A stretch of DNA of 33,318 bases from an uncultured Alphaproteobacteria bacterium. Its GTDB lineage: Bacteria > Pseudomonadota > Alphaproteobacteria > UBA11222. Positions 24,637-33,318 of the stretch are shown in pieces (position 1 is the first letter of the stretch; the number at the start of each line of letters is the position of its first letter). The notes beneath the pieces were generated by a model, which was not told the origin of the DNA, did no database searches, and saw only the letters and a list, made by a program, of their open reading frames with translations. The DNA lies in NCBI GenBank assembly GCA_947258435.1, contig CAMYID010000022.1, positions 234,961 through 268,278 on the forward strand, read 5' to 3'. A program made the position numbers and the translations under genes.

Positions 24637-25590
24637 TTAGCGGTAAGCGCCGACAGTCTGATAGGGCATACCGCCAAGCCCGCGTTTGAAATGGGTCAGA
24701 CCCGGCGCGGCGGCAGGGTGAATGCCCCCCAGATCGAACCAGGCAATGCCGCGTGACCTGAGCGTTTCAACCGCCTGCCAGAGCAGGAAGTTCGTCGCTG
24801 CCACCTTGCGGCCTTCGTTACTGCTCCAGCCGATCTGATAGGTTGCCGCGCGTCCGTGCAGCAGCAGCATGATTGCGGCGATGATCGTGCCATCGCCCGC
24901 ACATGCGCGCAGCAGCAGCATCTCATTCTGCGTACTGAATGACCGGGCCATGGCGGTTACCATCGCGGCGGACGGGCCGCGATAACGTTTTGTCTTTCTG
25001 TCGGCCAGATAGCGTGGCAGCAACCAGTCGAGCGCCGCGCTGTCTGTGCGGGTATCGCAGCGCAGGCCCAACGCCTCCCCGCGACGCAGACGGTTGCGCC
25101 ATTTCTGGTGCAGCCCGGCGCGCAGATCCGCGAGCGGGGGGCGCAGATCAAGCCACAGCGTATGATAGCCCTCGCCCTGCCGTCTGAAACCGCATTCGAT
25201 CAGCATGTCATGATTGGCGGTCGAGGCGGCGAGTTCGGGCAGGATGCGCCTGAAGCGCCCCAGTTTTGGTGGATAGCGGGCGGCAAATTCAGCGAAAAAC
25301 GCCGCCGCAGGCGGCGGATCGGATGGCGCGTCAAACCAAAGCGGGCCGCGATGCAGACCGACATAGTGAATGCCGGCCAGGCGCAGTTCCTGCACCTGGC
25401 AAAAACCCGTTGGCCGGCCTGCAAGGTGGATCAGCCCGAACCGCGTATGCCGTTGCGCGGTGTTTCTGATCGCCTGGGCATAGGGCCATGTCTGAATGAG
25501 GTTGGAGCGGCCGACCCGCATCAGATAGCCGCGCCAGCTTTCGCTGTCATGGCTGTCCCAATCGATTTGCAGCTCGCTGCCTGCTGCCAT
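24637..25590 (-). CDS. FemAB/GNAT-fold acyltransferase-like protein
   Basis: The 317-residue protein resembles the FemAB-like (BioF2 acetyltransferase, PEP-CTERM FemAB) proteins. It has LHQKWRNRLRRGEALGLRCD in the middle, then a GNAT-type half with AAIMLLLHGRAATYQIGWSS, AATNFLLWQAVETLRSRGIAWFDLGG and a LTHFKRGLGG ending. The GNAT fold would transfer an aminoacyl or acyl group; relatives act in peptidoglycan bridge building or surface-polymer modification. It is the last gene of a minus-strand group with the thioesterase, the cyclic-nucleotide-binding protein and the ABC exporter. Close to glycosyltransferases, a role in modifying an envelope polymer is plausible but inferred. Confidence 0.75.
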   Translation of the reverse strand: MAAGSELQIDWDSHDSESWRGYLMRVGRSNLIQTWPYAQAIRNTAQRHTRFGLIHLAGRPTGFCQVQELRLAGIHYVGLHRGPLWFDAPSDPPPAAAFFAEFAARYPPKLGRFRRILPELAASTANHDMLIECGFRRQGEGYHTLWLDLRPPLADLRAGLHQKWRNRLRRGEALGLRCDTRTDSAALDWLLPRYLADRKTKRYRGPSAAMVTAMARSFSTQNEMLLLRACAGDGTIIAAIMLLLHGRAATYQIGWSSNEGRKVAATNFLLWQAVETLRSRGIAWFDLGGIHPAAAPGLTHFKRGLGGMPYQTVGAYR

Positions 25591-25643
25591 TTCTGTCCGC
25601 TTTCTGGCTGTCTTGCCGGCGTTTGCGGCGCGTGCTTTGTCGG

Positions 25644-26096
25644 CTATTTCGCGCGTTTCAGCGTGACCACACTTGCTGTTGTGCTTGCTGTGGCAAGGAC
25701 TGCCCCTTCCGCATCGCTCAAGGTGGCTTCGGCAAAGCTGATCGATCTGCCGCGTCGGATCACCCGGGCCTGTGCGGTCAGTCGGCCGGGCCGGGCTGCC
25801 TGCAGAAAGCTTGTCTTGAGCTCAAGGGTGGGGGTGATCTGTCCCCAGTCGATCGTCAGACCCAGCGCCAGGCTCAGCACATCGTCCATCATGGCCGATA
25901 CCATGCCGCCATGAATACCGCCCCACAGATTGCACAAGTTCTCGCCCGCATTATAGGCAACGGTCACGGTCCCTGCCTGCGGGTCACATGCAATAAATTC
26001 AAGACCAAGACAGGCGCTGGCCGGTGATGGCTTGCGTAGAATTGCCTGAATATTGGGAGGCAGTGTTTCGGGGTCTGTTTTCTGGCTATCGCTCAC
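25644..26096 (-). CDS. PaaI-type hotdog-fold thioesterase
   Basis: The 150-residue protein has a single hotdog domain with the family motif NLWGGIHGGMVSAMMDDVLSLA (helix and HGG segment), then TLELKTSFLQAARPGRLTAQARVIRRGRSISF. Such enzymes hydrolyse acyl-CoA thioesters; PaaI acts on phenylacetyl-CoA intermediates, but many relatives have other substrates, and no phenylacetate genes are near. The start is GTG at 26096, supported by an AAAGGTG upstream and the absence of an earlier ATG. It is 53 bp ahead of the FemAB-like gene and 106 bp after the cyclic-nucleotide-binding gene. Confidence 0.85.
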   Translation of the reverse strand: MSDSQKTDPETLPPNIQAILRKPSPASACLGLEFIACDPQAGTVTVAYNAGENLCNLWGGIHGGMVSAMMDDVLSLALGLTIDWGQITPTLELKTSFLQAARPGRLTAQARVIRRGRSISFAEATLSDAEGAVLATASTTASVVTLKRAK

Positions 26097-26202: not shown

Positions 26203-26670
26203 TTAATTACCGGCTGCCGGAGTGTCTATGCTGCGGGCACGGATCAGGTCCGCCGTGGTTGTTTCAAGCCGCTGCGCCAGCACGCGCATCAGCTCGATAG
26301 CGATGCGCGGAAAATCGTCGATCAACTGGAAAAAGCAGTCCTTGGTAATCTTCAGTGTGCAGAGCTGGCTTTTTGCGCAAACGGTGGCCGAGCGTGGCTG
26401 ATCCATCAGAATGGCCATCTCGCCGACGAAGTTATTGGCGCCAAGGGCTGCCACAAAAACAGACTGACCATTGATCTCGCGGGTGATTTCCGCTTCCCCC
26501 TCAATGATCAGATAGGCGCAGCTGGCATCTTCCCCCTGCCGCATCAGATACTGCCCTGCCTCGAAAGTGGTGCGTTCGCTTGTAAAGGCGAGCAGCTTGA
26601 GTTTGGCGGGCTCAATCCCCCGAAACAGCGGTACTTTCCGTAATGTTTCCACTTCGTCGTTCAGTGACAT
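26203..26670 (-). CDS. Stand-alone cyclic nucleotide-binding domain protein
   Basis: The 155-residue protein is one Crp-type beta-roll: LFRGIEPAKLKLLAF, GQYLMRQGEDASCAYLIIEGEAEI, and the phosphate-binding cassette NFVGEMAILMDQPRSATV, which keeps the Glu and Arg that hold cAMP or cGMP. No DNA-binding helix-turn-helix follows; the C-terminus is a short helix (LMRVLAQRLETTTADLI). It is therefore a sensor that must act through a protein partner. The ABC exporter, whose stop lies 26 bp upstream, is the obvious candidate. A clear AGGAGAC precedes its ATG. Ligand choice is not readable. Confidence 0.87.
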   Translation of the reverse strand: MSLNDEVETLRKVPLFRGIEPAKLKLLAFTSERTTFEAGQYLMRQGEDASCAYLIIEGEAEITREINGQSVFVAALGANNFVGEMAILMDQPRSATVCAKSQLCTLKITKDCFFQLIDDFPRIAIELMRVLAQRLETTTADLIRARSIDTPAAGN

Positions 26671-26696: not shown

Positions 26697-29429
26697 TCAG
26701 GCCCGGCCTGTGTGCGCCATGGTTGCGGGGCCCGGGGAATCATGATCGGATGCGCTGTCCTGCGGTACGCATAGTCTGCCATCCTCCACACGCAATATAT
26801 GGTCAAACTCGCGGGCCTCGTCTTCATGGGCGGCAACCCAGATCAACCCTTTGCCGCGATAATCGGCCCGGATATTGTCACGGATGATCGCCTGGCTTGC
26901 GGGGTCGATCGCGCTTAGTGCCTCATTGACGATGAGGATATCGGATTGCCGCAGCAAAGCGCGCGCAAGCGCCAGTTTCTGTCGCTGTCCAGCCGCCAGC
27001 AACTTACCGCCCAGCCCTGTCTGGAAATCAAGGCCGACGCGGAAAATTTCACCGCGCAAGGCCAGCTCGTCAAGGACTTCGGAAACCAGCTGCCCGATGC
27101 GGGACTGGGCTTCCGCCTGCCCGTAGACCGGCCGCCCGAACAGGATATTATCCATCAGGCTGGCGGCGCTGTTATAGCGTTCAGGGTCATAGAATTCGAT
27201 GGCCGCGAGGTAATCGGGCGGCAGGTCCCTTGTGAGCTGGCGGCGCGCCGACAGGATCATATCCTCCATGTCCGCATCGATCAGACCAAGCCTGTGTCGC
27301 GCCTCGATATAGCCGACCGGCAGATTGCCAAGCGCCAGTCTGTCATCTTCGGGCAGATTGCCCAGATCGAGCTTGCGAATCCGGCCGACGATTTCGGCGA
27401 AAACCGGCAGATCGTCTGCCGCGATAAAGCTGTATTGTTCAAAGAAGGGGTGGCCGGGATTCAGATCGGCGAACAGTTCAACCATGGTTTGCGCGATGAC
27501 CGCTCCCATCTCGATCAGCGTGTCCCAAAGGCCCGCCCGATGCAGAAAGTCGCGCATAATCGGGTCTTCGGTAAGGTGGCGCGGATCGAGCTTTGCGCCG
27601 GTCGGTGTTCCGAATAAAAGGTTCTCGCCCAATGTGGCATTGTGATTATAGGCATCAGGGTCAAAGGGTTCGATCAGGCTGTCATAGCCGGGTTCACGCA
27701 GCATCTTTGCCAGTAATTGCCGGGCGATCAGCAGGTTGCCGGTAAGCTGGGGCTGTTCATGGGGGTTGATCGTCCCGCGTAGTCCGAACTGGTAAATATC
27801 TTCATCTAGGGTGACGCGCGTTATGACCGCGCGCAGCCGGCTGTCAATATCGTAGGGGCCGACGGCGCCGGCTGCGGCATAATCCACCCAATCGGCAAAG
27901 ATATTAAAATCCGGATTGCCGGCGCGCGCGGTTTCCATACGCGCAAGCTCGGCTGTCTTCGGGTCGTCAAGCTCTGTATCGAGCTTGTCGAGGGGGCGGT
28001 GTTTCAGCCCGTACAGCAAATTGTCGCGGATACTGAGAGGGAAAAAATTGCTGTCCCCCGCGACATAGGAAATACGCCGGCCGGTCACCGCCTCGGGCAG
28101 TTCGGCGATATCCTGATCGCCGACCGTCAGCTTGCCGCTGCTTGGAAACAGCAGCCGTGCCAGCAGCAGCGCAAGCGTTTCCTTGCCACCGCCGGCGGGC
28201 CCCGCGATCGCCACATGCGCGCGGGCATCGAACCGGAAAGAAATGCTGTCGATGATCTTAACGCCGCAATCATCCTCCCATGTCAAATTGGCGGCAACAA
28301 TGTCACCGCTAAAGGGATCCGCGCGGTGTCGGCCGGGATCCTGCATGTTGCTTGCCAGCATTTGCGGCGGATGAAACTGCTCGATCACCTGATCATATTT
28401 GATTTGCACATCGAGCCGCTGCTGATCCCAGTCGATCAGTTCCTTCACCGGGCCGGGTAATTCCTTGTAGGCGACAAGGGCGGCGACCAGCTGGCCGATA
28501 TCCATGCTGCCTGTTATCGCCAGATAACCGCCCCCCGCATAGAAGATGAAGGGTGTAACCTGTGCCAGGAAGTTATTGAGGAACTTGACGAAAAACTTGC
28601 GCCGGTAAAGCTCGAAGCGGATCAGAAAGATATTGCCGAGCCGGCGTGTGATCTCCGCACGTTCGAAATTCGATGTGTCATGGGCATGAATTTCGACCGC
28701 GCCATCGACAATTTCGCCAATGCGGCCCGACAGGGCGCGGGCCGCAAGCTGCCGCTGCCGCCCCAGTTCCAGAATGCGTTTGCGCAGCTTGGGGATCAGA
28801 AAGGCCTGTACAAGCACGACAGCCGCCGCGACAAGCCCCAGCCAGAAATTCTGCAACATGATGAAAATCAATGCCGTCAGCGCCAGCCCGCCCAAAAAGG
28901 CCGGCTGCACGAAGGCGTCACCGATAAAACCGCCAAGCGGTTCCACCTCATCCTTTATCATGGTGGCGATTTCGGCCTGTTTGACCCGGCGCACAAAGGG
29001 GGTAGGAAACCGCAAGACCCGGTCAAACAGCTGATAGCGCAGCCGGCGCAGCATCCGCTCCCCCATCCGCCCCTTCAGCGTATTGATCTGGAACTTGAAC
29101 AGGCCGTTGATCGCGACAAGCCCCAGCAAGGTGCAGCTCAAGGCCAGCAGATAGGGAATGCGTTCCAGCGTAAACCCTTCAAACAAAACCCATTGTCCGG
29201 CTCCGAACAGGCCCTGCAGGAAATCGGGAATCGCGACACTGAAGTCAAGGAAATGGCGGGTTGCATCCGGCCCGTCAAACCCCTCGCCCCGGATCGGCTG
29301 GTTGACGATGAGGCGGGGCAGATCGAGCGACAGATAATAAAAAGGCAGGGATGCCAGCACGAGGCCCAGCACCACCAACTGTTCGCGGCGGCTATAGCGC
29401 CAGATATATCTGAACAGTTTCGGTTCCAT
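26697..29429 (-). CDS. ABC exporter (TMD-NBD) with degenerate ATPase motifs and a large NBD insertion
   Basis: The 910-residue protein has an exporter membrane domain (about 15-330, with helices near 18-35, 92-112, 180-212 and 290-320) fused to a nucleotide-binding domain. Walker A reads GPAGGGKET (410-418), with Glu417 where Ser/Thr coordinates magnesium. The Q-loop is YVAGD, with Gly458 for Gln. The signature is LAAGQ (811-815) and Walker B is ILIVNEALSAID, with Asn835 for Asp; Glu836 and His869 remain. About 340 residues separate the Q-loop from the signature; exporters usually have about 60. Segments at 589-607 and 747-765 repeat the post-Q-loop pattern seen at 461-475 (NLLYG, NLLFG, NILFG). 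The frame is intact and codon use normal, so it is a real gene. Substrate unknown; context suggests a glycan or glycolipid. Confidence 0.85.
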   Translation of the reverse strand: MEPKLFRYIWRYSRREQLVVLGLVLASLPFYYLSLDLPRLIVNQPIRGEGFDGPDATRHFLDFSVAIPDFLQGLFGAGQWVLFEGFTLERIPYLLALSCTLLGLVAINGLFKFQINTLKGRMGERMLRRLRYQLFDRVLRFPTPFVRRVKQAEIATMIKDEVEPLGGFIGDAFVQPAFLGGLALTALIFIMLQNFWLGLVAAAVVLVQAFLIPKLRKRILELGRQRQLAARALSGRIGEIVDGAVEIHAHDTSNFERAEITRRLGNIFLIRFELYRRKFFVKFLNNFLAQVTPFIFYAGGGYLAITGSMDIGQLVAALVAYKELPGPVKELIDWDQQRLDVQIKYDQVIEQFHPPQMLASNMQDPGRHRADPFSGDIVAANLTWEDDCGVKIIDSISFRFDARAHVAIAGPAGGGKETLALLLARLLFPSSGKLTVGDQDIAELPEAVTGRRISYVAGDSNFFPLSIRDNLLYGLKHRPLDKLDTELDDPKTAELARMETARAGNPDFNIFADWVDYAAAGAVGPYDIDSRLRAVITRVTLDEDIYQFGLRGTINPHEQPQLTGNLLIARQLLAKMLREPGYDSLIEPFDPDAYNHNATLGENLLFGTPTGAKLDPRHLTEDPIMRDFLHRAGLWDTLIEMGAVIAQTMVELFADLNPGHPFFEQYSFIAADDLPVFAEIVGRIRKLDLGNLPEDDRLALGNLPVGYIEARHRLGLIDADMEDMILSARRQLTRDLPPDYLAAIEFYDPERYNSAASLMDNILFGRPVYGQAEAQSRIGQLVSEVLDELALRGEIFRVGLDFQTGLGGKLLAAGQRQKLALARALLRQSDILIVNEALSAIDPASQAIIRDNIRADYRGKGLIWVAAHEDEAREFDHILRVEDGRLCVPQDSASDHDSPGPATMAHTGRA

Positions 29430-29643: not shown

Positions 29644-30906
29644 GTGAAGAAATCCGGTGCGCGGATACTGATTTACAGTCACGATACCTTCGGGCTTGGG
29701 CATTTGCGGCGCTGCCGGACCATTGCCCACAGTCTTGTCGAGAATTTTTCAAACCTGTCTGTGCTGATCATTTCCGGCTCTCCGATCATTGGCAGTTTTG
29801 ACTTCCGCGCGCGGGTCGATTTTGTGCGGGTGCCCGGGGTAATCAAGCTGCGCAATGGCGAATATACATCCCTCAATCTGCATCTCGATATTGAGGAAAC
29901 GCTCGAATTACGCCAGTCCATCATTCAGCATACGGCGGACAAATTCGCCCCGGATCTGTTTCTGGTGGATAAGGAGCCGCTGGGCCTGCGCGGCGAGGTG
30001 GCGCCAACCCTGTCCCTGTTGCGCGCGCGCGGTACACGGCTGGTCGTGGGATTTCGTGATATCCTCGATGCACCCGAGGCGCTGGCGCGCGAATGGGCGC
30101 GAAAGAAAGCGGTCCCCGCGCTCGACACGCTTTACGACGATATATGGGTCTATGGTCTGCCGGAAATCCACGCACCGCTCGACGGGCTGGGGCTTGCCTC
30201 CGCGACGCATGCGAAAATTCGTTATACCGGCTATTTGTGTGCGCCTGCCCCGGCGGAGCCCGCGGGCATGCGCCGGCCGGCCATCACCCACAGCCCCTAT
30301 CTGCTGGTGATGACAGGCGGCGGCGGCGACGGGGCGGGCCTCATCGACTGGGTATTGTCAGCATATGAGTTATGCATGAGGGAAAGTCTGCCGCCGCCCC
30401 TGCCCGCCCTGCTGGTTCTCGGGCCGTTTATGAATGGCGATGCGCAGGAAGCCTTTCTGCGCCGGGCCGATGCGCTTGAAACGGTCGAGGCCCTGCGGTT
30501 TGAAAGTCATATCGAGCAGTTGGAGCGTCACGCGACCGCATTCGTGACGATGGGCGGCTATAATACTTTTTGTGACATCCTGTCCCATGACAAACCCGCG
30601 CTTATCGTGCCGCGCATGACACCGCGTATGGAGCAGGCGATCCGTGCCGAACAGGCACAAGAGCTTGGATTGGCCGATTTGCTTTACGATCCGGTTGAAA
30701 CGGGGGCCGCCGCCCGCGATCCGCGTGACATGCTGGCGGCCTTGCACCGGCTGGCGGGGCGGCAACCCCCTTCGGGACAGGCCTTGCCGGGGCTGGGTGA
30801 GGGGCGGGCACAGCTTGCGGAACTTGCCGCCCCCTGGATTGTGCCACATGGCGCGCGCCGCGTGTCACCGCGCCCCGGCATTGCGACCGGCCGAAAGTAT
30901 GGATGA
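29644..30906 (+). CDS. Glycosyltransferase, COG4671 type (GT-B, GT28-like)
   Basis: The 420-residue protein opens with ILIYSHDTFGLGHLRRCRTI, the signature of COG4671 predicted glycosyltransferases, equivalent to the glycine-rich acceptor loop of MurG. The C-terminal donor-binding half has LLVMTGGGGDG, then FVTMGGYNTFCDILSHDKPA and LIVPRMTPRMEQAIRAEQA, typical of GT28. It would transfer a sugar from a nucleotide donor in the cytoplasm; the sugar is unknown. The start is GTG at 29644, fixed by the conserved N-terminus, with only a weak ribosome binding site. The next glycosyltransferase overlaps its stop, so they are translated together. It heads the operon divergent from the ABC exporter. Confidence 0.85.
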   Translation: MKKSGARILIYSHDTFGLGHLRRCRTIAHSLVENFSNLSVLIISGSPIIGSFDFRARVDFVRVPGVIKLRNGEYTSLNLHLDIEETLELRQSIIQHTADKFAPDLFLVDKEPLGLRGEVAPTLSLLRARGTRLVVGFRDILDAPEALAREWARKKAVPALDTLYDDIWVYGLPEIHAPLDGLGLASATHAKIRYTGYLCAPAPAEPAGMRRPAITHSPYLLVMTGGGGDGAGLIDWVLSAYELCMRESLPPPLPALLVLGPFMNGDAQEAFLRRADALETVEALRFESHIEQLERHATAFVTMGGYNTFCDILSHDKPALIVPRMTPRMEQAIRAEQAQELGLADLLYDPVETGAAARDPRDMLAALHRLAGRQPPSGQALPGLGEGRAQLAELAAPWIVPHGARRVSPRPGIATGRKYG

Positions 30907-32254
30907 TGCGGCATTAACATCTGCAGGCGGAAGAATGGATGCTGAATGGGCGTTTGTTCTCAAGGGGTATCCACGCCTTTCGGAAACCTTTATCGCGGAG
31001 GAAATTGCCGCTCTCGAACGCGCGGGACTGAGGCTTCAGATCTGGTCTTTGCGTCATCCCACCGATCCCGTGACCCACCCGGTGCATCGCGATATCCGGG
31101 CACCCGTCTTTTATTTGCCCGAATATCTCCATCACGCGCCATGGCGGGTTCTGCGTGGGGTGTGGGCGGGGGTGCGGCGGACCGGTTTCCGGCGCGCATT
31201 AGGGCAATGGGGGCGTGATCTGCTGCGTGAACCGACGCGCAACCGCATTCGCCGGTTCGGACAGGCGCTTGTGCTGGCGCGTGAATTGCCACCTCATATA
31301 ACCGGGCTGCATGCGCATTTTCTGCATACGCCGTCATCGGTCGCGCGCTATGCGGCGTTGCTGCGCGGCACCGGCTGGAGTTTTTCAGCCCATGCCAAGG
31401 ATATCTGGACAAGCCCGGAATGGGAGCTGGGGGAAAAGCTCGCCGACTGTAGCTGGGGGGTAAGCTGCACCGCGGCGGGCACAGATTACCTGAATGAGAT
31501 CGCTGCCCGTTTCGGTCGCACCACACCGGTGCAACTGATTTATCATGGTTTGCCGCTGGCACGCTTTCGCGCTCCCTCATCCGGCGATATGGCGGGTGCG
31601 GTGCGCCGTGACGGGGGCGATCGGGCGCAGCCGGTTCGGCTGGTCAGTGTCGGCCGGCTTGTCGATAAGAAGGGATATGACATATTGCTGCGCGCCCTGG
31701 CCCTGCTGCCGCAAGATTGTCACTGGCGATTGACCCATATCGGCGCGGGCCCGCTTGCCGCGCAGTTGCGCGATCAGGCATCGGAGCTTGGGCTTGCCGG
31801 CCGGATCGACTGGCGCGGCGCAACCGGCCAGGCGGGCGTTCTGGCTGCCCTGCGCATGGCCGATCTTTTCGTGCTCGCCTGCCGGGTATCGGGCGATGGC
31901 GATCGCGACGGCATTCCCAATGTGCTGATGGAAGCGCAGAGCCAGATGCTGGCTTGTGTGACGACGGCGGTTTCCGCCATTCCCGAACTGATCATCGACG
32001 GAAAGACAGGTATCCTTGTTGCGCCAGAGGATCCCGAAGCCATGGCGCGTGTCCTGTCGCAACTTATCGCATCGCCCGACAAGCGCTATGCGATAGGGCA
32101 GGCAGCCCGGGCGCGGATCGAGGCAGACTTTGCGATGGATCGCTGTATCGCGCCCCTTTGCCGCCGCTTTGGACTTGCGCCTTCGCGGGCGGCAGGTGAA
32201 AAGAAACAAATCAAGGCCATGCGTTCCGGACCGGAAGCGGGGATTGCTGATTGA
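30899..32254 (+). CDS. Glycosyltransferase family 4 protein, exopolysaccharide type
   Basis: The 451-residue GT-B protein has YPRLSETFIAEEIAALERAG near the start, as in WcaL/colanic-acid-type GT4 enzymes. HAHFLHTPSSVARYAAL and FSAHAKDIW follow, and the donor half has VSVGRLVDKKGYDILLRAL, then DGDRDGIPNVLMEAQSQM with the conserved final Glu, and the segment AIPELIIDGKTGILV. It would extend a surface polysaccharide or glycolipid. Starts are uncertain: ATG at 30899 overlaps the previous stop by eight bases; ATG at 30935 has a better AGGCGG upstream and leaves 439 residues. The frame is open far upstream inside the previous gene, which I ignore. It lies mid-operon between two other glycosyltransferases. 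Confidence 0.88.
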   Translation: MDDAALTSAGGRMDAEWAFVLKGYPRLSETFIAEEIAALERAGLRLQIWSLRHPTDPVTHPVHRDIRAPVFYLPEYLHHAPWRVLRGVWAGVRRTGFRRALGQWGRDLLREPTRNRIRRFGQALVLARELPPHITGLHAHFLHTPSSVARYAALLRGTGWSFSAHAKDIWTSPEWELGEKLADCSWGVSCTAAGTDYLNEIAARFGRTTPVQLIYHGLPLARFRAPSSGDMAGAVRRDGGDRAQPVRLVSVGRLVDKKGYDILLRALALLPQDCHWRLTHIGAGPLAAQLRDQASELGLAGRIDWRGATGQAGVLAALRMADLFVLACRVSGDGDRDGIPNVLMEAQSQMLACVTTAVSAIPELIIDGKTGILVAPEDPEAMARVLSQLIASPDKRYAIGQAARARIEADFAMDRCIAPLCRRFGLAPSRAAGEKKQIKAMRSGPEAGIAD

Positions 32255-32268
32255 ATCTGGACTGAGCT

Positions 32269-33318
32269 ATGCGGATTGCATTTTACGCGCCGATGAAACC
32301 GCCCGATCATGCGGTTCCGTCCGGGGATCGCCGGATGGGGCAATTGCTTGTCCGCGCGCTCGGGCGGGGTGGTCATGCCGTCGATCTTGCCTCGCATTTC
32401 CGCAGCTATGAGGGAACCGGCGATCCGGCGCGCCAGGCCGGTTTGCGTGCACGGGCGTTGGACGAAGCGCGCGCCCTGACGGCCCGTTATCGGACCCTGC
32501 CACCCACCGATCGCCCCGATCTCTGGTTTACCTATCATGTCTATTACAAGGCACCCGACTGGATCGGGCCCGAGGTCGCGCGCGCACTCGGCATTCCTTA
32601 TGTGATTGCCGAAGCATCCCATGCGGGCAAGCGTGATGTGCCGGCCTGGCGGCTTGGCCATCGCGGGGCGATGCTTGCGATCTGTTCTGCCGATCTCATC
32701 TTCTCGATGACGGCGGTCGACCGGGCGGGGATCGCATCCCTGCTGGCTGCCCGGCAGCAGCATTGCGATCTGCCGCCCTTTCTCGATACGGACGGGTTTG
32801 CAGCGCCCACCGCAGGCCCGCCGGATGCAGCGGCGCCGACCCGTCTGCTGACGGTTGCGATGATGCGTCAGGGTGCGAAGCTTGAAAGCTACCGGCGGCT
32901 GGCGGCTGCCCTTGCGCGGCTTGGGGGTCTTGACTGGCATCTCACGATTGTCGGCGATGGGCCGGCCCGCGAGCAGGTTGCGGCAGCCTTTGCTGAGTTT
33001 CCGGCCGGGCGGGTGCGATTCACCGGTGCCTTGCCCCCTGAACAGGTTGCGCAATGTTATGGCGCGGCCGACCTGTTCCTCTGGCCCGCTGCGGAAGAAG
33101 CCTATGGCATGGCGCTGCTTGAGGCGCAGGCCTGCGGTTTACCCGTCATTGCCGCCCGGGTACGCGGTGTGCCCGATGTGGTGCAGGATGGGCAGTGCGG
33201 TTTCCTGACCCCCGATGGGGATATCGCAGCCTTTGCCGATACCGCAGCTTTTCTGATCGCCGATTGCGCCGCGCGCCGGGAGATGGGGGCAGCCGCCCGC
33301 GCGCATGTGTGCAAGATG
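32269..33318 (+). CDS. Glycosyltransferase family 4 protein (partial at window end)
   Basis: 350 residues are visible and the frame is open at the right edge. The N-terminal half starts MRIAFYAPMKPPDHAVPSGD and includes DLWFTYHVYYKAPDWIGP and GIPYVIAEASHAGKR. The donor half has LLTVAMMRQGAKLESYRRLA, LTIVGDGPAREQV and VRFTGALPPEQVAQCY. The GT4 E-x7-E motif lies in AAEEAYGMALLEAQACGLPV, followed by VRGVPDVVQDGQCGFL. It follows the previous glycosyltransferase by 14 bp and is the third in a row, so the operon probably assembles one oligosaccharide. The retaining GT4 assignment is secure; donor and acceptor are unknown. Confidence 0.88.
   Translation, partial: MRIAFYAPMKPPDHAVPSGDRRMGQLLVRALGRGGHAVDLASHFRSYEGTGDPARQAGLRARALDEARALTARYRTLPPTDRPDLWFTYHVYYKAPDWIGPEVARALGIPYVIAEASHAGKRDVPAWRLGHRGAMLAICSADLIFSMTAVDRAGIASLLAARQQHCDLPPFLDTDGFAAPTAGPPDAAAPTRLLTVAMMRQGAKLESYRRLAAALARLGGLDWHLTIVGDGPAREQVAAAFAEFPAGRVRFTGALPPEQVAQCYGAADLFLWPAAEEAYGMALLEAQACGLPVIAARVRGVPDVVQDGQCGFLTPDGDIAAFADTAAFLIADCAARREMGAAARAHVCKM

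Follow-up and report, generated by a model that had tools for sequence, protein, structure and literature searches.

The 910-residue protein described here belongs to a maintained alphaproteobacterial family of ABC exporter-fold proteins. None of the homologues keeps the complete set of residues used for ATP hydrolysis, and the nucleotide-binding domain (NBD) contains three versions of the segment that normally follows the Q-loop. The gene lies in a stretch of 33,318 nucleotides (the window), between a gene for a cyclic-nucleotide-binding (CNB) protein and a group of glycosyltransferase genes. Our preferred explanation, to which we give a probability of about 0.5, is that the protein forms a pseudo-ATPase homodimer whose NBDs act as a CNB-regulated coupling platform, and that it serves as a gate or flippase for a glycan produced by the glycosyltransferases encoded nearby. 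On this view the family is one of pseudo-ATPase ABC exporters, in which selection on the residues for ATP hydrolysis has been lifted but remains strong on the transmembrane domain (TMD) and the overall NBD fold. Neither the family nor the combined CNB-ABC-glycosyltransferase locus is described in the open-access papers searched.

An exporter-fold protein conserved in Alphaproteobacteria

The gene and its membrane domain occupy the following positions in the window:

26697..29429, reverse strand: ABC exporter-like protein with a degenerate NBD, 910 residues (open reading frame; PF00664 and PF00005)
28365..29159, reverse strand: TMD, residues 91-355 (PF00664 match at residues 93-319)

The reading frame is uninterrupted, and both Pfam domains score above their gathering thresholds (PF00664, 63.5 bits against a cut-off of 28; PF00005, 56.6 bits against 25). 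ABC_membrane is followed by ABC_tran in a single chain, as an earlier reading made from the sequence alone (the sequence-only reading) had proposed, and by these sequence matches the protein is by descent a TMD-NBD protein of the type IV ABC exporter fold. Its best NCBIfam match is MsbA (TIGR02203), at 156.9 bits against an equivalog cut-off of 602. Among the long parts of the family proteins, the TMD is the best conserved, with a mean column entropy of 1.40 bits.

The gene is present once in its own genome (E<=1e-80), and at the same threshold strong relatives occur in 97 of 289 alphaproteobacterial genomes, normally as one copy, nearly all of them full length and sharing the NBD insertion described below. 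A wider sample of 398 Pseudomonadota genomes yielded relatives in 31, all of them Alphaproteobacteria; neither the gene search nor a profile of the insertion found a family member outside this class in that sample. A profile built from the insertion alone recovers the same genomes as the whole-gene search. Plasmids and chromids contribute 262 records with a family gene, mostly from Rhizobium and Sinorhizobium.

Comparison with the nearest relative (L044, 88% identity) gives dN 0.073 and dS 0.806, a dN/dS of ~0.09, and the TMD, core NBD and insert each show a similar picture (~0.09 for the insert). The sequence-only reading had noted that canonical, insertion-free homologues would mark this gene as a decaying copy. 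Since relatives are widespread and nearly all full length, and dN/dS is ~0.09, the gene instead belongs to a maintained family, and decay into a pseudogene is ruled out.

Loss of the catalytic residues

The ATPase motifs of the NBD lie at these positions:

28179..28202, reverse strand: Walker A, GPAGGGKE, residues 410-417, with Glu417 in the place of Ser/Thr (family alignment)
26985..26999, reverse strand: degenerate signature, LAAGQ, residues 811-815 (family alignment)
26922..26939, reverse strand: Walker B, ILIVNE, residues 831-836, with Asp replaced by Asn835 and Glu836 kept (family alignment)
26826..26831, reverse strand: H-loop, with Ala867 in the aligned position and His868 displaced by one (homologue alignment)

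The Q-loop position is occupied by Gly458 and there is no Gln. The window protein thus keeps two of the six classical catalytic positions (Lys416 and Glu836) and lacks Ser/Thr417, Gln458, Asp835 and the switch His; with its LAAGQ signature, it does not have the motif set expected of a working ABC ATPase. As controls we took two ordinary exporters encoded in the same genome, which carry GPSGAGKS, the Q-loop Gln, LSGGQ, DEATSALD and AHR. Our alignments reproduce the GGGKE, Q-loop Gly, LAAGQ and Walker B Asn of the sequence-only reading, as well as the catalytic Glu it described as retained. The switch His it also considered retained is not in register. In the homologues this His follows W-x-L, nine residues ahead of the Asp in the following FD, within a W-V/A-L-H-R motif, whereas the window has W-V-A-A-H-E, which puts Ala867 in the aligned column and leaves His868 one position late.

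Residue counts were taken over 102 homologues, or 106 once four divergent members (L152-L155) were added. The Walker A Ser/Thr position (417) is Glu in 43 and Asp in 37 of the 102, with Ser or Thr in only seven; over the larger set an acidic residue stands there in 80 of 106. At the preceding Walker A Lys position (416), Lys (59) or Arg (31) accounts for 90 of 102. The Q-loop Gln is kept in 20/102 and the switch His in 30/102; the Walker B Asp position (835) is Asn in 52, Ser in 21 and Asp in 18, and the Glu836 position is Glu in 48. The signature is degenerate in most members, with Q815 and the adjoining R816-Q817 highly conserved, and the D-loop Asp842 is present in 91 of 102. The complete six-residue set occurs in none of the 106, and 48 have none or one of its residues. 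A single member (L130), the best preserved, has five of the six. The residues rarely survive as pairs: Asp-Glu in Walker B is found in only 4/106 and Lys-Ser/Thr in Walker A in only 5/106, with a basic-acidic combination at the latter positions in 71/106.

Mapping onto the family tree gives a minimum of 6-15 state changes for each catalytic position, and 1, 0 and 0 changes for three Asn residues of the repeats described below (N470, N603 and N761). Entropy ranks give the same ordering, with the catalytic positions middling to poor and these Asn residues among the best in the protein. The question of whether the four substitutions seen in the window are conserved therefore has a divided answer: the exact changes are not, but the lack of a full catalytic set and the insertion are, and an acidic Walker A is found in most members. 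We infer, with good support from these alignments, that ATP hydrolysis has been lost, although ATP binding and slow turnover may persist in some members. Of the possibilities raised by the sequence-only reading, operation without normal hydrolysis fits best.

The four divergent proteins form a branch with frames of 863-1016 residues (e.g. L152:5473-8025, forward strand) in which every ATPase motif is erased. Their Walker A reads GERGSGARAL, with the Lys gone, and Walker B, signature and H-loop are missing; the three repeats are intact. The L152 gene lies a few kb from genes resembling an S41 peptidase and an EnvC-like M23 protein.

Triplication of the post-Q-loop segment

The distance from Walker A to signature is 401 residues in the window protein and 104 in both control exporters, giving a net insertion of ~297 residues, rather than the ~340 previously estimated. 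The Q-loop-to-signature distance is 353, which is also the family median (range 326-425). Sequence comparison shows that the insertion consists of the NBD's own post-Q-loop segment, repeated twice more in degenerate form and arranged as follows:

28008..28070, reverse strand: repeat 1, residues 454-474, the Q-loop strand plus SIRDNLLYG, with Gln replaced by Gly458 (Asn470 in 101/102 homologues)
27609..28007, reverse strand: inserted unit 1, residues 475-607, ending in repeat 2, IEPFDPDAYNHNATLGENLLFG (586-607; hhalign; Asn603 in 102/102)
27135..27608, reverse strand: inserted unit 2, residues 608-765, ending in repeat 3, IEFYDPERYNSAASLMDNILFG (744-765; hhalign; Asn761 in 102/102)

Each repeat consists of a Q-loop strand followed by S/T-[LIV]-x-[ED]-N-[LI]-L-[FY]-G. 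Alignment of unit 1 with unit 2 by hhalign gives a probability of 98.3 (E 1.8e-14), and each unit matches the original Q-loop segment with a probability of about 70%; similarity to the helices ahead of the signature is weaker (probabilities of 22% and 7%). Column-shuffled controls never reached the observed score in any repeat comparison, and the insert profile finds a second match within the protein at residues 741-801 (E 2.2e-7). The control exporters have an Asn twelve residues past the Q-loop Gln, the same spacing as from Gly458 to Asn470. The central Asn of all three repeats is present together in 105 of 106 homologues.

Two other origins for the insertion were considered and rejected. 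Searches of Pfam, NCBIfam and the PDB with the insert, alone or as a profile, returned no match, and the profile finds only the family itself, which rules out a foreign domain. A second complete NBD is likewise ruled out, as the insert has no P-loop and no Pfam match.

A full-length AlphaFold model built from six sequences was too poor to place the repeats against the TMD (pLDDT 54, pTM 0.32) and was discarded. The model of residues 370-895 has a mean pLDDT of 73, with most of the core at 76-93 and inserted unit 2 at about 62-87. Its predicted core matches the TAP1 and HlyB NBDs in the PDB, with a TMt of up to 0.73 (TAP1 NBD, 2ixf), and so retains the NBD core fold in prediction; because of this match, we expect the fold to close around the insertion, which is modelled mainly as helices.

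A cyclic-nucleotide-binding partner and a glycosyltransferase locus

The sequence-only reading overlooked the internal repeats and also the genes on either side:

26203..26670, reverse strand: CNB-domain protein, 155 residues, the next gene downstream (PF00027, 6e-21)
29644..30906, forward strand: glycosyltransferase GTa, a divergent neighbour with a GT28/MJ1255-like C-terminal half (weak family matches; conserved neighbour)
30644..32254, forward strand: glycosyltransferase GTb, GT4-type (PF00534, 5.6e-29; conserved neighbour)
32266..33318, forward strand: third glycosyltransferase, start only, the cluster running beyond the window end

A CNB gene lies directly downstream in 82 of 102 homologues and a CNB domain is fused to the C-terminus of the ABC protein in nine more, giving an adjacent or fused CNB domain in 91/102. 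In 83 of 100 CNB sequences the phosphate-binding cassette retains its Glu and Arg. The partner appears built to sense a cyclic nucleotide. It may in turn control or gate the ABC protein.

The longest GTb frame overlaps GTa; since GTb homologues are about 415 residues long, the true start is probably near 31000. Of 20 neighbourhoods, 15 have a GTa-type gene, nearly always with GTb, beside the ABC gene; in two of the remaining five the sequence is cut off by a contig end. A glycan is a plausible, if conjectural, substrate. The link to glycans is not universal, because some lineages (Ruegeria, L150) have no glycosyltransferases and carry the fused form alone. One such protein, from Ruegeria sp. 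B32 (L150:10001-13081), combines ABC and CNB parts, lacks the glycosyltransferase cluster and is annotated only as 'cyclic nucleotide-binding domain-containing protein'; this form could be either ancestral or repurposed.

Proposed function and alternatives

ABC exporters are the textbook example of ATP-driven pumps. In ordinary members, the helical subdomain begins with the post-Q-loop segment, which faces the coupling helices of the TMD. Because the Q-loop region lies at this NBD-TMD interface, we regard a docking and coupling platform with CNB input as the likeliest role for the NBD. The protein would form a homodimer in which the NBDs dock and couple but do not act as the motor, and the extra repeat copies would provide binding sites for the membrane domain or for another protein that acts as partner. 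Regulatory input would come from the CNB protein, whether adjacent or fused to the C-terminus. The complex would then gate or flip the product of the neighbouring glycosyltransferases, a glycan or glycolipid, with the driving force supplied by the substrate gradient or the synthesis machinery. The most specific version of this proposal, a homodimeric, ATP-independent, second-messenger-gated ABC protein for glycans that has abandoned hydrolysis in both sites and triplicated its coupling segment, we put forward only tentatively.

The chief alternative is that the protein is a genuine but slow ATPase, or an ATP switch, in which ATP-bound NBDs dimerise and either slow hydrolysis by Glu836 or binding and release alone drives transport, tuned by the CNB protein. 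It takes this place because most members have a basic residue at the Walker A Lys position and about half, including the window protein, retain Glu836; the conserved D-loop Asp842, Q815 and R816-Q817 and the predicted retention of the NBD core fold are also in its favour, and the degenerate sites of known heterodimers can retain ATP for minutes (PMC7756269). Against it, the acid that replaces the Mg-ligating Ser/Thr in 80/106 should repel phosphate, the Walker B Asp remains in only 18/102, no member has the full catalytic set, and one branch (L152-L155) has lost everything, the Walker A Lys included. On balance we judge this rival unlikely, although it deserves to be taken seriously.

Type IV exporters commonly include heterodimers in which one site is degenerate (PMC7756269), and ordinary exporters are present in the same genome, so the protein might instead be the degenerate half of a heterodimer whose one working site is provided by an ordinary half-transporter encoded elsewhere. 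That working site would need the signature of the present protein, which is degenerate in most members. Furthermore, no second exporter half (a TMD-NBD gene) lies near the ABC gene in the neighbourhoods examined, whereas the CNB gene does; a distant partner may exist, but we consider the arrangement improbable. Slightly less likely still is that the protein transports nothing and is a regulatory or scaffold membrane protein recruiting the glycosyltransferases and the CNB protein to the membrane. The loss of motor residues, the strongest constraint falling on the repeat cores and the partner-rich locus would all suit such a role, but the conservation of the TMD suggests that something is bound by it or passes through it. 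We favour transport as the probable activity of the proposed pseudo-ATPase homodimer.

If the preferred explanation is correct, an exporter fold without hydrolysis machinery in both halves, and with its membrane-facing part multiplied, would mean that the coupling role of the NBD is separable from its role as motor. About a third of the sampled alphaproteobacterial genomes carry a family member, among them the genetically tractable Rhizobium and Sinorhizobium, which makes the proposal directly testable. The family also suggests a function for a conserved glycosyltransferase locus whose current annotation is only generic.

Relation to known systems

The family shares the order of PF00664 and PF00005, and the fold, with the type IV (formerly type I) exporters MsbA, BmrA, TAP1 and ABCB1, but differs in lacking a complete catalytic set and in having the ~297 extra NBD residues, three post-Q-loop segments and a CNB partner. 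TM287/288, TmrAB, TAP1/2 and CFTR have likewise lost consensus ATPase residues under selection at one ATP site. These proteins keep one canonical site, whereas in the presumed homodimer both would be degenerate, with signature and Walker motifs altered together.

The closest precedent found is HetC of Nostoc, an ABC exporter with a CNB-type domain needed for its function (PMC10986499). HetC has an essential ATPase catalytic residue and a cysteine peptidase domain; its CNB domain is N-terminal, and this cNMP domain bound ppGpp and not cAMP (PMC10986499). In the present family, the CNB domain is either encoded separately downstream or fused at the C-terminus, no peptidase was seen and the NBD is degenerate. 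The msbA2 operon on pSymB of S. meliloti resembles our locus in placing an MsbA-like gene among glycosyltransferases, but its make-up differs, with an acyltransferase, two glycosyltransferases and msbA2 (PMC3687685). It is unlikely that msbA2 (SMb21191 of S. meliloti 1021) is the present gene, and SMb21265 was not identified with it either.

Further features of the locus

Past the window end, the cluster continues with genes for a histidine phosphatase, a further glycosyltransferase (GTd), a 306-residue protein without a Pfam family and a four-gene SBP_5/Opp-type importer, comprising a fused DppD/F-type ATPase, an SBP_5 protein and two permeases (L142:156-9082; G000:C22:268155-277081). This order is found in the source genome and is co-linear across several families, and related arrangements occur in R. 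leguminosarum, S. meliloti and Azospirillum. The presence of an importer beside glycan-making genes is an unexplained pairing in a conserved cluster. Upstream of the importer in S. meliloti RCAM1750 (L149:1-1068) are an annotated adenylate/guanylate cyclase gene and a PF14099 polysaccharide lyase; the two, seen in this one genome only, would be consistent with signalling by a cyclic nucleotide and with a glycan. On the other side of the locus, the region 24637-26096 of the window (reverse strand) holds a hotdog thioesterase gene, which follows the CNB gene here, in its close relatives and in L056, and also a gene for a FemAB/GNAT-type protein.
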